Assembly: GCA_944323985.1 (NCBI GenBank)
Contig: CALUUP010000002.1
Coordinates: forward strand, 62,001-126,000
DNA from: Candidatus Gastranaerophilales bacterium
Lineage (GTDB): Bacteria; Cyanobacteriota; Vampirovibrionia; Gastranaerophilales; Gastranaerophilaceae
DNA: 64,000 nt
Direction: 5' to 3'
In this document: positions 36,218 to 54,222 of the stretch, one piece after another
Layout of the letters: every line of letters starts with the position of its first letter
Numbering within the stretch: the stretch's first letter is position 1
The notes under the pieces: generated by a model
Databases searched by the model: none
Told to the model about the DNA's origin: nothing
What the model saw: the letters and a program-made list of their open reading frames with translations, nothing else
Translations under genes and position numbers: made by a program

Positions 36218-36248
36218 ATTATAACACGGAGATAAATTATTTGTTCAA
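36218..36248 (-). promoter_or_regulatory. Promoter of the hom-secF operon
   Basis: On the minus strand TTGAAC (36243-36248), a 19-bp spacer and TGT-TATAAT (-10 at 36218-36223). The predicted start leaves a leader of about 17 nt with AAGGAGAAG. The heptad-repeat array begins directly upstream of the -35. Confidence 0.55.
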
Positions 36249-36249
36249 T

Positions 36250-36360
36250 TAGTAAATAGTGAGTAGTGAATAGTGAATAGTGAATAGAAATTTATTATTA
36301 ACTCCTTCTAAACTCCTCAACTTATAAACTTATAAACTGGTGACTATTCACTAGTCACTA
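36250..36360. repeat. Heptanucleotide tandem repeats forming a large inverted repeat
   Basis: Five 7-nt units fill 36250-36284: TAGTAAA, TAGTGAG, then TAGTGAA three times. The opposite orientation returns at 36344-36360 (CTATTCACTAGTCACTA); its CTATTCACTA is the exact reverse complement of TAGTGAATAG in the left array. Between them is a direct repeat, ACTTATAA twice (36320-36335). The stretch lies between the hom promoter and the sulP promoter and has no coding potential. It resembles the short tandemly repeated (STRR) heptamers described in cyanobacteria. A related array lies at 53589-53623. Confidence 0.85.
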
Positions 36361-50402: not shown

Positions 50403-51275
50403 ATGAGCAATATTGTTATTTATTCAACAAAACCAATGCCTGATTTACAAGCTAAGCTTATGGATATTGATGAAGTTGATGTTAGAGTTGTTTCTATTGA
50501 TCAAATTAAGGATTATGCAGTTATCAATCCTTCTTTAATGATTATTGAAAATATAGATTTAGCAAAAGATGCACTTATGACAAATAAATTCCCTTGTCCT
50601 ATTTTATTTTTAGGTGAAACAAGAAGAGATGCAACTGTAAGAGCTGAAAGCTACGATTTTATAAGGGATTTCAATAATACTGATGAATTAATTGTTCGTG
50701 TTAAAGCTTTATTAAAAACAAAAGAATTAAAAGATAAAGTAGAAAGAGTTTCTGCAACAGATGATTTAACAGGTTTGCATAATAGAAAATATCTTCAAGA
50801 ACGTTTGGAAGAAGAAATTTCTCGTTCAAAAAGATATGGAACTAAGTTATCTTGTATTCTTTTTGATATTGATTTCTTTAAAGTTGTCAATGATATGTAT
50901 GGTTATGAATGGGGAGATATCTTGCTTAAAAACATTGCAAACAAATTAACTGCAATGGCAAGAAAAGAAGATATCGTAACAAGATATGGAGATGAAGAAT
51001 TCTTGCTTGTATTACCTAACACATCAGAAGATAACGCTTTCTTATTTGGAGAAAGATTCAGAAGAGAAATTGAAAAGATGGAATTTATTCCGGCTGGTGA
51101 AGATGAAGCTCACAAGGTAACTATTTCTGGAGGAATTTCTACTTATCCTTGTATGGCAGATGTAGAAGAAGATGCAAATACTGTAATCAGATATGCTGAA
51201 CACGCTTTATATAACGCAAAACATAGAGGAAAGAATAAAATCATTCAATTCTCTCAAATGAATTTGGAAATGTAA
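50403..51275 (+). CDS. Degenerate GGDEF protein with pseudo-receiver
   Basis: A 290-residue protein. The N-terminal ~105 residues have a receiver-like pattern, but the phospho-acceptor position is a glutamate (E49, PSLMIIEN) and the usual acidic pair is missing. The GGDEF domain (about 115-285) has GDEEF at 196-200 in place of GG(D/E)EF. The RxxD inhibitory site is kept at R187-D190. It may be a c-di-GMP receptor rather than a cyclase; residual activity cannot be excluded. ATTTTAGAGG-type spacing (GAGG) before the ATG supports the start. A strong terminator follows. Confidence 0.85.
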   Translation: MSNIVIYSTKPMPDLQAKLMDIDEVDVRVVSIDQIKDYAVINPSLMIIENIDLAKDALMTNKFPCPILFLGETRRDATVRAESYDFIRDFNNTDELIVRVKALLKTKELKDKVERVSATDDLTGLHNRKYLQERLEEEISRSKRYGTKLSCILFDIDFFKVVNDMYGYEWGDILLKNIANKLTAMARKEDIVTRYGDEEFLLVLPNTSEDNAFLFGERFRREIEKMEFIPAGEDEAHKVTISGGISTYPCMADVEEDANTVIRYAEHALYNAKHRGKNKIIQFSQMNLEM

Positions 51276-51294: not shown

Positions 51295-51329
51295 AAAAAA
51301 GAGTTGAGAAAATGTCTCAACTCTTTTTT
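51295..51329. terminator. Bidirectional intrinsic terminator after the GGDEF gene
   Basis: A perfect 15-bp inverted repeat (51295-51309 with 51315-51329) around a 5-nt loop, with A-run and T-run arms. Confidence 0.9.
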
Positions 51330-51367
51330 CTTGTTTTATATATTTTATTTAAATAAATAGTAAACAA

Positions 51368-51400
51368 GTAGGATGTGGTAAATCTTTGATTTACCGCATC
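51368..51400 (+). repeat. REP hairpin, copy 1 (GTAG foot)
   Basis: GTAG followed by a 13-bp stem: GATGTGGTAAATC at 51372-51384, loop TTT, GATTTACCGCATC at 51388-51400, with one T-G wobble. This is the layout of bacterial REP sequences recognised by TnpA_REP transposases. The copy is in the same orientation as the one at 51548. Confidence 0.88.
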
Positions 51401-51404
51401 AAAA

Positions 51405-51547
51405 CTAGTACACAATTGAATTTAGTACATTCTTTTTTGTATCTTGAATTGTAAGTTTTAATTGAGGTTTACTTCCTATTGGAACTAATGTATTTACACT
51501 GATATTTTCACCTGAATTTATTACTCCTAATGGTATTAGATTAGCAA
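51405..51547 (-). pseudogene. C-terminal remnant of an unknown protein between two REP copies
   Basis: Read on the minus strand, about 45 codons without a start end in TAG at 51405-51407. The product includes LIPLGVINSGENISVN and PIGSKPQLKLTIQDT, beta-rich like the end of an envelope or adhesin-type domain. The frame runs back into the second REP copy and meets a stop at its edge. It looks like the tail of a gene cut by REP/RAYT insertion; the rest is not visible in the window. It occupies most of the gap between the GGDEF gene and the transposase. Confidence 0.4.
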
Positions 51548-51580
51548 GTAGGATGTGGTAAATCTCTGATTTACCGCATC
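51548..51580 (+). repeat. REP hairpin, copy 2 (GTAG foot)
   Basis: GTAG plus the same 13-bp stem, loop TCT. It differs from copy 1 only in one loop base. It lies 13 nt past the stop codon of the transposase gene. Confidence 0.9.
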
Positions 51581-51593
51581 AAAACTTATCAAA

Positions 51594-52130
51594 TTATTCA
51601 TAATCTAAATCTGCAATTTTATATTTATCTTCAAAATTACACCAATCTGTTTCATAATATCCATTTTTAACAAAATTGTTAAACGTTGAATATTTCCAAT
51701 CCTTTGGTGTAATTTGATAATGTTTCATAGGATTATAATGTATGTAATCTATGTGACGATATAAATCTTCTTCATTTCTAATTGTATGTTCCCAAAAACG
51801 TCTTTGCCAAATATCACGTTCTTTGCGTTTAATATTACTATCGCTTTGTTTATAGTCTACAATAGTATTAATATCAATTTTTTTAGAAAAAGTTCGTTTT
51901 ATTAATAAAATTATTTTTGAGTACTCATTAATGTTATTAGGCTTTATTAGTAAATGTATGTGATCTTTCATTACACAAATTGCATAAATCTCAAAATTAT
52001 AATATTTATGTGCATTTTTGATAGAAAATTTTAATAATTCGATATTTTTAATCAAAATATTACGTCTTTTGCTTGTAACAATGGTAATAAAAATTATACT
52101 GTTTGGAATATATAATCTTTTGTAATTCAT
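51594..52130 (-). CDS. REP-associated tyrosine transposase (TnpA_REP / RAYT)
   Basis: A 178-residue single-strand DNA transposase of the HUH/Y1 superfamily. The metal site is H57-x-H59 in VMKDHIHLLI. The nucleophile is the tyrosine of HIDYIHYNP (probably Y129), and WQRRFWEHTI is another RAYT hallmark. E. coli TnpA_REP binds and cuts REP hairpins at their GTAG foot. Here inverted REP copies flank the gene 13 nt after the stop and 25 nt before the start, and both carry GTAG. The start codon lies 6 nt after a TGC-TAAAAT extended -10, with the nominal -35 inside the REP stem. RAYTs are usually domesticated, single-copy genes. Confidence 0.93.
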   Translation of the reverse strand: MNYKRLYIPNSIIFITIVTSKRRNILIKNIELLKFSIKNAHKYYNFEIYAICVMKDHIHLLIKPNNINEYSKIILLIKRTFSKKIDINTIVDYKQSDSNIKRKERDIWQRRFWEHTIRNEEDLYRHIDYIHYNPMKHYQITPKDWKYSTFNNFVKNGYYETDWCNFEDKYKIADLDYE

Positions 52131-52136
52131 AGATGT

Positions 52137-52145
52137 ATTTTAGCA
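52137..52145 (-). promoter_or_regulatory. Extended -10 promoter of the RAYT gene
   Basis: The minus strand reads TGC-TAAAAT, ending 6 nt before the ATG without a ribosome site. At a 17-bp spacing the -35 (TTACCG) falls inside the flanking REP stem. Confidence 0.5.
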
Positions 52146-52155
52146 TATATTAAAA

Positions 52156-52188
52156 GATGCGGTAAATCAGAGATTTACCACATCCTAC
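52156..52188 (-). repeat. REP hairpin, copy 3 (inverted)
   Basis: GATGCGGTAAATC (52156-52168), loop AGA, GATTTACCACATC (52172-52184), then CTAC, the complement of the GTAG foot. It is the exact reverse complement of copy 2 and with it brackets the transposase gene, like a BIME. Confidence 0.9.
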
Positions 52189-52195
52189 TTACTTA

Positions 52196-52222
52196 CTGAG
52201 AAAAAATCTCAGCTTCTTTTTT
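52196..52222 (+). terminator. One-sided terminator hairpin next to REP copy 3
   Basis: A 6-bp stem (CTGAGA at 52196-52201, TCTCAG at 52207-52212) with an A5 loop and a rightward T-run. Seen from the leftward TonB-like gene, the run after the stem is TAAGTAAG and not T-rich, unlike other terminators here. The left half may have been replaced when the REP element inserted. Confidence 0.45.
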
Positions 52223-52225
52223 AAA

Positions 52226-53041
52226 TTATAATCTGCTTTTTTGCTCTAATTCTGCTTTATAACGTTTATAGTTATTGTTTAATTCGGTTAGACTAATTGC
52301 TTTATCAATGGCTTCAAGAGCGTGTTCGTAATCTCCTGCGATTTCATATGAATGAGCTAAATAAAAATATGAAAATGGTGTATTTTCCATCTCTGCTATA
52401 AGTTTTGAGGAGTTTATTCTTTTTTGATCATATTTAGCTTTTAATCTTTTAGATTCTATAAGGTCTTCTTCTGCTCCTTTTTCGTCACCTAGGGCTCGTT
52501 TGATTTTACTTCGTTTTCCGTATAAATAATACGAATTGATATCTCCTTCGACTTCATCAATTGCTTTATTAATATAATCTAGTGCCATTTGATTATTTAC
52601 ATTTATAAAGCTATCTGCATTTTCAACATAACGACGCATTGTATCAGTTTTTACGATAGTTGTGTTAAAAGTATATTTAATAGTAAGGCTTTCTTTAGAA
52701 GTGCTTGCTGGGAATTTATCAAACGGAGCAGCTTTTTTTAGTGCTTCTAAAGTTGCTTCATCAAATACAGGATTATTAGAGCTTTCTACTATTTGAGCGT
52801 CGAGAAGATGTCCAAATCTGCTTACTTTAAACATAACTGTTGCATGCCCGTCTTCTACAAAATCAGGCGGATCCCAAGTTCTTTGAATTTTATTTTGAAG
52901 AGAGGTCATATAATCAGAAAAACTTACCTGTAATTCTTGGTTTCCACGATATTTGTTATAATCAAATTCAGAAGAAAATACAGGAAGTGCAAGCATAAAT
53001 AAAATGCAAGCAAAAATAAATCTTTTTACACAATACCCCAT
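52226..53041 (-). CDS. TonB C-terminal-domain protein with TPR-like tail
   Basis: A 271-residue exported protein. It has a signal peptide (1-24), then a TonB-C-like domain with SLQNKIQRTWDPP, ATVMFKVSRFGHLLDAQIVESSNNPVFDEATLEALKKAAPF and LTIKYTFN (about residues 30-130). A helical, TPR-like tail follows with MALDYINKAIDEVEG and FYLAHSYEIAGDYEHALEAIDKAI. Free TonB-C proteins usually need an ExbBD motor or act in envelope assembly. No exbB/exbD is nearby. The first codons (ATGGGGTATTGT) lack a clear ribosome site; TATAAA lies 8 nt upstream. Confidence 0.78.
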   Translation of the reverse strand: MGYCVKRFIFACILFMLALPVFSSEFDYNKYRGNQELQVSFSDYMTSLQNKIQRTWDPPDFVEDGHATVMFKVSRFGHLLDAQIVESSNNPVFDEATLEALKKAAPFDKFPASTSKESLTIKYTFNTTIVKTDTMRRYVENADSFINVNNQMALDYINKAIDEVEGDINSYYLYGKRSKIKRALGDEKGAEEDLIESKRLKAKYDQKRINSSKLIAEMENTPFSYFYLAHSYEIAGDYEHALEAIDKAISLTELNNNYKRYKAELEQKSRL

Positions 53042-53530: not shown

Positions 53531-53588
53531 TTTTACCTCGATTTTTATTATATCTGAAAAAAGTTTAGAAGAAGTTAATCATTACTTC

Positions 53589-53623
53589 TATTCACTACTC
53601 ACTATTCACTAATCACTAGCTAC
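53589..53623. repeat. Second heptanucleotide tandem-repeat array
   Basis: Five 7-nt units on the plus strand: TATTCAC, TACTCAC, TATTCAC, TAATCAC, TAGCTAC. This is the complementary orientation of the TAGTGAA array at 36250. It lies at the stop codon of the leftward unknown gene and in front of pncC. No coding potential. Confidence 0.82.
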
Positions 53624-54222
53624 TAATATGTCGTACGCTTTAGAATTATTTTTGATTTTTCGTTATACAAATTATGCTTGTACCAAACCCCTTCAAATTC
53701 ACCATCAGGAGTGAATAAATACTGGCAATCTTTCGATACAAAATATATTGCACTCACAGGAGTTCCTGAGATTCTGTATTGGATAGAATAATAAGGATAA
53801 TCAGGATATTCGCCATAGATAAAATCAACATATTTCAAATTCCCTAGAGCGTCATAATAATAAGCTTTTGAAACATCTTTTTTATCCTGAAGAGCATACA
53901 TATAAATATTTTTCATTCTTTTATAATAAAAAGCCGAAATATTATAATCTCCATATTCTTTATATCCTGCAGATGCTGCAAGATAATGCTCAATTCTGTC
54001 TTTATCTTTCAACTTATCCTTAAATTGAGATTTAAAATCTTCTTGTTTTACAACAGGATTTTCAAATATTATATCTTTGACTTCATTAATTATAGCTTCT
54101 TTTTCAACAATGGATTTATCTATCCAATCATATTTTATATCTGCAATATAAATGTCATTATAATTAGCAAAAACAAAAGGACAAATTAGTAAAAATAAAA
54201 TCGTAGATAAAATTTTTTTCAT
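53623..54222 (-). CDS. Exported protein of unknown function
   Basis: A 199-residue protein that I do not recognise. A signal peptide (1-19, ending VFANYN) leads into a helical acidic region and then a Tyr-rich beta part: AYYYDALGNLKYVDFIYGEYPDYPYYSIQYRISG, VSAIYFVSKDCQYLF and GEFEGVWYKHNLYN. The beta part looks like a small periplasmic sheet domain. GGAG lies before the ATG. The stop codon runs into the heptad array; no terminator is visible. It stands alone and its neighbours give no clue. Confidence 0.6.
   Translation of the reverse strand: MKKILSTILFLLICPFVFANYNDIYIADIKYDWIDKSIVEKEAIINEVKDIIFENPVVKQEDFKSQFKDKLKDKDRIEHYLAASAGYKEYGDYNISAFYYKRMKNIYMYALQDKKDVSKAYYYDALGNLKYVDFIYGEYPDYPYYSIQYRISGTPVSAIYFVSKDCQYLFTPDGEFEGVWYKHNLYNEKSKIILKRTTY

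Follow-up and report, generated by a model that had tools for sequence, protein, structure and literature searches.

What moves when repetitive extragenic palindromes (REPs) spread, the short hairpins or the complete unit of two inverse REPs with a REP-associated tyrosine transposase (RAYT) gene between them, is the question raised by a locus at 51368-52188 of the window, a 64,000-nucleotide stretch from a Candidatus Gastranaerophilales bacterium (assembly GCA_944323985.1, contig CALUUP010000002.1, positions 62,001 to 126,000). RAYTs are described as domesticated transposases, with genes that stay put and only the REPs moving, and according to the accessible part of Quentin (2018) such REP-rayt-REP units, the REPtrons, are not transposed as wholes; the answer bears on how REPs and REPtrons first spread. 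The locus is very probably a REPtron whose enzyme mobilizes single REPs and REP pairs and, within this lineage, whole units as well. Unlike the reported behavior, related units lie at apparently unrelated loci, and the complete unit seems to move between sites and species. The hairpins and the gene are placed as follows:

51548-52188: REP-rayt-REP unit of 641 bp, bracketed by REP2 and REP3.
51368..51400, forward strand: REP1, with the GTAG foot at 51368-51371, arms at 51372-51384 and 51388-51400 and a TTT loop, in direct orientation to REP2.
51548..51580, forward strand: REP2, a GTAG foot plus hairpin forming one end of the 641-bp unit.
51594..52130, reverse strand: rayt/tnpA_REP gene of 178 amino acids, with DHIH, YIHYNP and the foot-recognition segment WQ....EH..R.
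52156..52188, reverse strand: REP3, with its foot at 52188-52185, inverse to REP2 and forming the other end of the unit; the rayt start codon lies 25 bp downstream of it.

The main evidence comes from four other genomes, two of the same genus (G059 and G308) and two of other genera (G040 and G123; G numbers label genomes, with G000 for that of the window, L numbers label loci and C numbers contigs). Their units, of 641-650 bp, share 88.0-96.6% DNA identity with that of the window and stand without its neighboring genes, and homology ends 0-6 bp outside the GTAG feet in 10/10 pairs among the five. Across all clades, in 36 pairs of complete units that share loci and are not independent, the right end lies at most 8 bp from the foot in 36/36 and the left end in 29/36, with both ends within this distance in 29/36. 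The RAYT is 93% identical between the window and G040 and 88% between the window and G123, compared to at most 74% and 70% for the other sampled genes, taking best hits, not proven orthologues, of the window proteins in 200-kb samples of both genomes. A transfer of the unit between genera is thus indicated by the sequences. Regarding the G040 locus, a named record identical to it over the whole 3.5-kb stretch is a Candidatus Gastranaerophilales metagenome-assembled genome.

Duplicated and reduced forms are also found. G118 holds two decayed units, 100% identical over 626 bp and 5.6 kb apart, with different flanks, and G125 two copies 99.7% identical over 603 bp, one of them cut by the contig end, with no right REP found. 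When the flanks of one G118 copy (L395) were joined, an open frame of some 120 codons resulted that resembled an interrupted gene; this was discarded as chance, because the sequence of an intact paralogue on that contig takes a different course. In G325, a miniature of about 320 bp on C2 retains both REPs and the two rayt ends, having lost the middle of the gene, and one REP with rayt 5' sequence is present on C21 of G280 and on C39 of the window genome. The suggestion of an active or recently active unit, made in an earlier note on this DNA, is supported by comparison alone, through identical stems at eight sites, unrelated loci, miniatures and the apparent intergenus transfer.

As to its anatomy, the element is a REPtron, in which two inverse GTAG-tagged hairpins, predicted to be recognized by the enzyme, flank the gene of a Y1 HUH nuclease (TnpA_REP/RAYT, group 2 or subclass 2.2-like). 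Each REP of the window consists of GTAG, GATGTGGTAAATC, a 3-nucleotide loop and GATTTACCGCATC, so that the tetranucleotide GT[AG]G expected 5' of the hairpin is present at every foot. The hairpins of REP2 and REP3 are exact inverse copies (97% identity over 38 nucleotides when inverted), REP1 departing by one loop base, and they place two inverted REPs around the gene, the arrangement by which RAYTs are defined in the available portion of Nunvar (2010; PMC2817692). The 13-bp stem bears a T.G mismatch at pair 5 in 7/8 copies of the genome, and each REP folds, as single strand, into the stated hairpin at -10.3 kcal/mol, with 0/200 shuffles equally stable. The 17-mer GTAGGATGYGGTAAATC, with up to 3 mismatches, occurs six times in the window (three exact and three complementary arms), compared to 0.13 expected. 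The earlier reading of three near-identical 13-bp GTAG hairpins, with copies 2 and 3 exactly inverse around a TnpA_REP gene with HIH and YIHYNP motifs, is hence borne out.

The protein has a Pfam Y1_Tnp match and an NCBIfam REP_Tyr_transpos match (E 9.3e-40) above the model cut-off, and its sole sequence match in the Protein Data Bank (PDB) is E. coli TnpA_REP (4er8, E 1.3e-21). The HxH motif and the catalytic tyrosine are conserved in 36/36 alignment rows, and the residues W94, Q95, E100, H101 and R104 (E. coli numbering) are retained, which contact GTAG in E. coli TnpA_REP according to the accessible part of Quentin (2018). The family model, together with the inverse REPs, the GTAG feet and the dispersed REP copies, agrees with the earlier assignment to a REP/RAYT unit. 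By the features tested this is a classical REPtron of ordinary anatomy, save for its low REP copy number; the interest lies in the mobility of the unit and in a natural switch of the foot.

Besides these residues, the element shares with the E. coli REPtron, a member of group 2, subclass 2.2, the DHxH, WE and YIHYNP-type motifs, the GTAG foot, the inverse REPs and an irregular stem, differing in its unrelated stem sequence, its host outside the proteobacteria, its few REPs and its apparent mobility. It resembles IS200/IS605 elements in having a Y1 HUH transposase, hairpin ends and apparent whole-element mobility, but its ends are inverse copies with a GTAG foot and the NCBIfam IS200 model gives 35.5 bits, below the cut-off of 55, so that this identity was rejected. 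TIRtrons likewise hold a RAYT-like gene (TIRYT) between inverted repeats; in the portion of Di Nocera (2013) available, however, those repeats are unrelated to GTAG hairpins, and this identity was also set aside.

The genome of the window (1.86 Mb, 68 contigs, 97% complete) has a single RAYT and eight exact copies of the 17-mer, against none of the reversed control. A genome-wide search for further REPs had been named earlier as the refuting test, and it returned five exact copies outside the window, all with GTAG. Allowing 3 mismatches adds six sites, of which one is the complementary arm of a REP already counted and five are scattered and chance-like (two in the control). The copies outside the window are of three kinds: three REP/inverse-REP pairs (twice on C3, once on C15), one single REP (C8) and one with a rayt 5' remnant (C39). 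The pairs match one another over about 80 bp and again over some 60 bp of the adjoining flank; at C3:2690-2771, C3:5520-5596 and from C15:33814 on, the partner inverse REP has a different stem, and the two form a joint, longer hairpin of -16.3 kcal/mol.

Across the family, RAYT matches (E 1e-10 or better) occur in 99/288 genomes and 27/41 genera, and the exact 17-mer in 37/288 genomes, in 1-24 copies each, the control being present in none. This is unlike the units of Nunvar (2010), which in the part available have usually more than 100 REPs. Eight exact copies fall short of that abundance, which is typical rather than defining, as a table in the same source gives S. Typhi with 1/10/16 REPs. 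Where a RAYT or fragment of at least 81% identity is among the matches listed, 9/9 genomes carry the 17-mer, compared to 28/279 others, an association that is partly circular because the REPs beside those RAYTs are counted. The lineage had been called little described; in agreement, no paper on REPs in Gastranaerophilales was found in a literature search covering few subscription journals.

The stem sequence follows the enzyme and not the host. A branch (100/99) separates the 30 Gastranaerophilales proteins from the others in a tree of 42 RAYTs, and the REP stem type, assigned by eye with a few short or unclear cases, changes seven times, the minimum for eight types, compared to 15 changes of host genus over the same rows. 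The RAYT units of Stenotrophomonas, Haemophilus and other bacteria are similar in this respect, REP-RAYT co-evolution being reported in the accessible part of Nunvar (2010). The Haemophilus REP GTAGGGTGGGCTTTAGCCCACC resembles the stems of some Gastranaerophilales clades. The earlier proposal of the same code with an unrelated stem can thus be extended to Gastranaerophilales as a whole, where GTAG is constant at the foot and the stem varies with the RAYT clade, with one exception, ATAG with E100A.

This exception emerged when the flanks of 89 distinct Gastranaerophilales RAYTs were surveyed, 53 of which reached an inverted-repeat score of at least 15, compared to 7/143 mismatched flanks. Among the 53 loci, 39 have GTAG on both sides, six have ATAG on both sides and eight have one or both feet unreadable by the script. 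The position of E. coli E100 is occupied by alanine in 6/6 ATAG cases and by glutamate or aspartate in 39/39 GTAG cases; in 72 loci of other taxa alanine occurs in none, and GTAG is present in all 28 for which both feet could be read. In a tree built without the recognition segment, alanine arose twice, with well supported branches forcing two origins. Four ATAG-foot units at different loci likewise end at most 8 bp from the feet. The loci concerned, together with those of a second clade, are:

L039, L048, L335, L336, L337 and L348: ATAG-foot RAYTs with alanine, with units also in L398-L401.
L342, L349, L350, L352, L354-L356, L359-L362, L364, L365, L367, L371, L373-L378, L380-L384, L386-L388 and L391: RAYTs with phenylalanine at W94.

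The flanking repeat is absent in 29/31 members of the phenylalanine clade (the exceptions being L368 and L388), as expected if REP binding was lost. As described in the accessible part of a 2021 paper in Nucleic Acids Research (PMC8266576), the E. coli enzyme strictly requires GTAG and tolerates no substitution; ATAG is absent from that paper. On balance, we lean slightly towards the Gastranaerophilales REPtrons being true transposons that end at GTAG hairpins, with residue 100 determining whether the foot begins with G (Glu/Asp) or with A (Ala). A single residue would then suffice to switch the specificity of these single-stranded DNA transposases, and the link between that residue and the natural change from GTAG to ATAG opens the recognition rule to direct tests.

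The site occupied by the unit was compared with that of its congeners, considering these features around it:

50403..51275, forward strand: GGDEF protein gene, left neighbor of the insertion.
51543..51547, forward strand: AGCAA, just outside the right GTAG foot, kept at three loci (window, G059 and G040).
52226..53041, reverse strand: TonB-C/TPR protein gene, right neighbor.

In 8/20 congener stretches the GGDEF and TonB-type genes are immediate neighbors in that order, separated by 15-74 bp that hold neither a REP nor a RAYT; for the remaining 12/20, no TonB gene was found beside the GGDEF gene. In G325 the unit occupies the site that it has in the window, as far as the contig reaches, and the piece of an unrelated gene, gene X, that stands beside it in the window is missing. 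In G280 a perfect palindromic REP (GTAG...CTAC) comes next after the GGDEF gene, and beyond it lies sequence that corresponds to the window from 53558 on. This palindrome (L150 1297-1334) has a foot at each end and looks like the product of two inverse REPs joined once the unit had been lost. The TonB/cinA block of G280 is displaced by about 60 kb and adjoins another REP (L152 2527-2575; L150 1361). From this layout it follows that REPs sit at rearrangement joints. A REP pair of the window genome (C3:5580) joins the 3' end of a gene that G280 and G059 have in full and whose other side is missing.

Several observations weigh against a mobile unit. No base-exact empty site was found for the window locus among the 20 congener stretches, as the intergenic gaps are too diverged; nor was one found for G040 (8 genomes of its genus), G123 (39 genomes), the G325 miniature or the REPs on C3 and C8 of the window genome, where gaps were too diverged or neighbors rearranged. 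The neighbor gene at G040 and G123 is inverted or shuffled relative to relatives, and the gene abutting a G118 copy has lost its 3' end. Moreover, 7/36 unit pairs, from three clades, share 40-75 bp past the left foot, and part of the neighborhood is common to L020/L021 (of G153 and G179), at 99.8% the pair of highest identity between different genomes. One RAYT with eight REPs is far under the usual number, and most of the genomes compared are metagenome assemblies. The L020/L021 pair was dropped as a case of unrelated loci, since blastn found 93% shared sequence about 650 bp away; different small genes lie beside its units in partly shared surroundings, which may be a variable region.

Taking what can be read from the sequences (the parts, the dispersed REPs, the stem-clade link, the units at unrelated loci ending at the feet, the derivatives and the intergenus transfer) along with the E. 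coli work, a mechanism may be outlined. The enzyme would bind single-stranded DNA folded at foot and hairpin, and its catalytic tyrosine would cut beside the hairpin, near CT, followed by strand transfer, which would mobilize solitary REPs, REP pairs and the whole REP-rayt-REP unit. In the window, the unit may have entered the gap between the GGDEF gene and the convergent TonB-type gene, and a neighboring REP-X-HTH-REP segment would later have been shortened by a deletion stopping just before REP2.

Homology would also end at the REPs, with no transposase moving the unit, if DNA that was taken up recombined between pre-existing REPs and exchanged the cassette. REPs lacking a RAYT at many sites, their position at rearrangement joints in G280 (the join of GGDEF gene, REP and 53558, and the displaced TonB block) and in G040 and G123, and the palindromic scar of G280 are compatible with such an exchange. 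However, 33 bp is little homology for recombination, units end at their feet also in clades with stems of 8-9 bp, and the miniature copies retain both ends, so that this explanation is considered rather unlikely.

The standard view, in which the RAYT is domesticated and immobile, descends vertically as housekeeping genes do and moves nothing beyond REPs and REP pairs, appears quite improbable here. It would account for a genome with one RAYT and several REPs, and the G325 unit at the site of the window is what descent predicts; tnpA_REP is placed close to housekeeping genes in the accessible part of the 2021 paper. Nevertheless, it is opposed by the presence of the unit at non-syntenic loci, both in congeners and in other genera, at identities that greatly exceed those of other genes, by a RAYT tree that needs 15 changes for genus and only seven for the stem, and by the identical units within G118. 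That the hairpins, lying between convergent genes, are transcription terminators with an incidental RAYT neighborhood is hardly credible, being contradicted by separate terminators beside both genes (51300-51335 and 52199-52225, as read from the sequence), by identical 17-mers beside RAYT remnants and in other contexts, and by stems that track the RAYT clade. With the REPtron mobile as a complete unit, a lineage with complete units, miniatures, solitary REPs and intergenus transfer would represent the stage that lies between insertion sequences and domesticated REPtrons.

The earlier note overlooked the apparent mobility of the whole unit, as well as the gene piece between REP1 and REP2:

51406..51544, reverse strand: 3' end of gene X, about 45 codons, with 81% amino acid identity to residues 126-179 of intact X.

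The intact X of the congener G059 has 179 amino acids and no Pfam match, and adjoins a small helix-turn-helix (HTH) gene ending just before a REP (L159 1718-2560). This REP carries the copied last bases of X behind it, and therefore REP copies can take flank along. Homologues of X occur in 29/288 genomes; only four of these have one with at least 55% identity across almost the full length, to which the window fragment is to be added. REP1 and the X piece look like the remains of a REP-X-HTH-REP segment as in G059, with the middle deleted to a few bases before REP2, and the idea may be entertained that X and the HTH gene between the REPs of G059 are candidate passenger genes. Another dispersed repeat, of GTGAATAGTGAATAG-type and then AAATTTATTATTA, lies at 36248-36338 and 53561-53626 of the window and beside several REP/RAYT loci of congeners.
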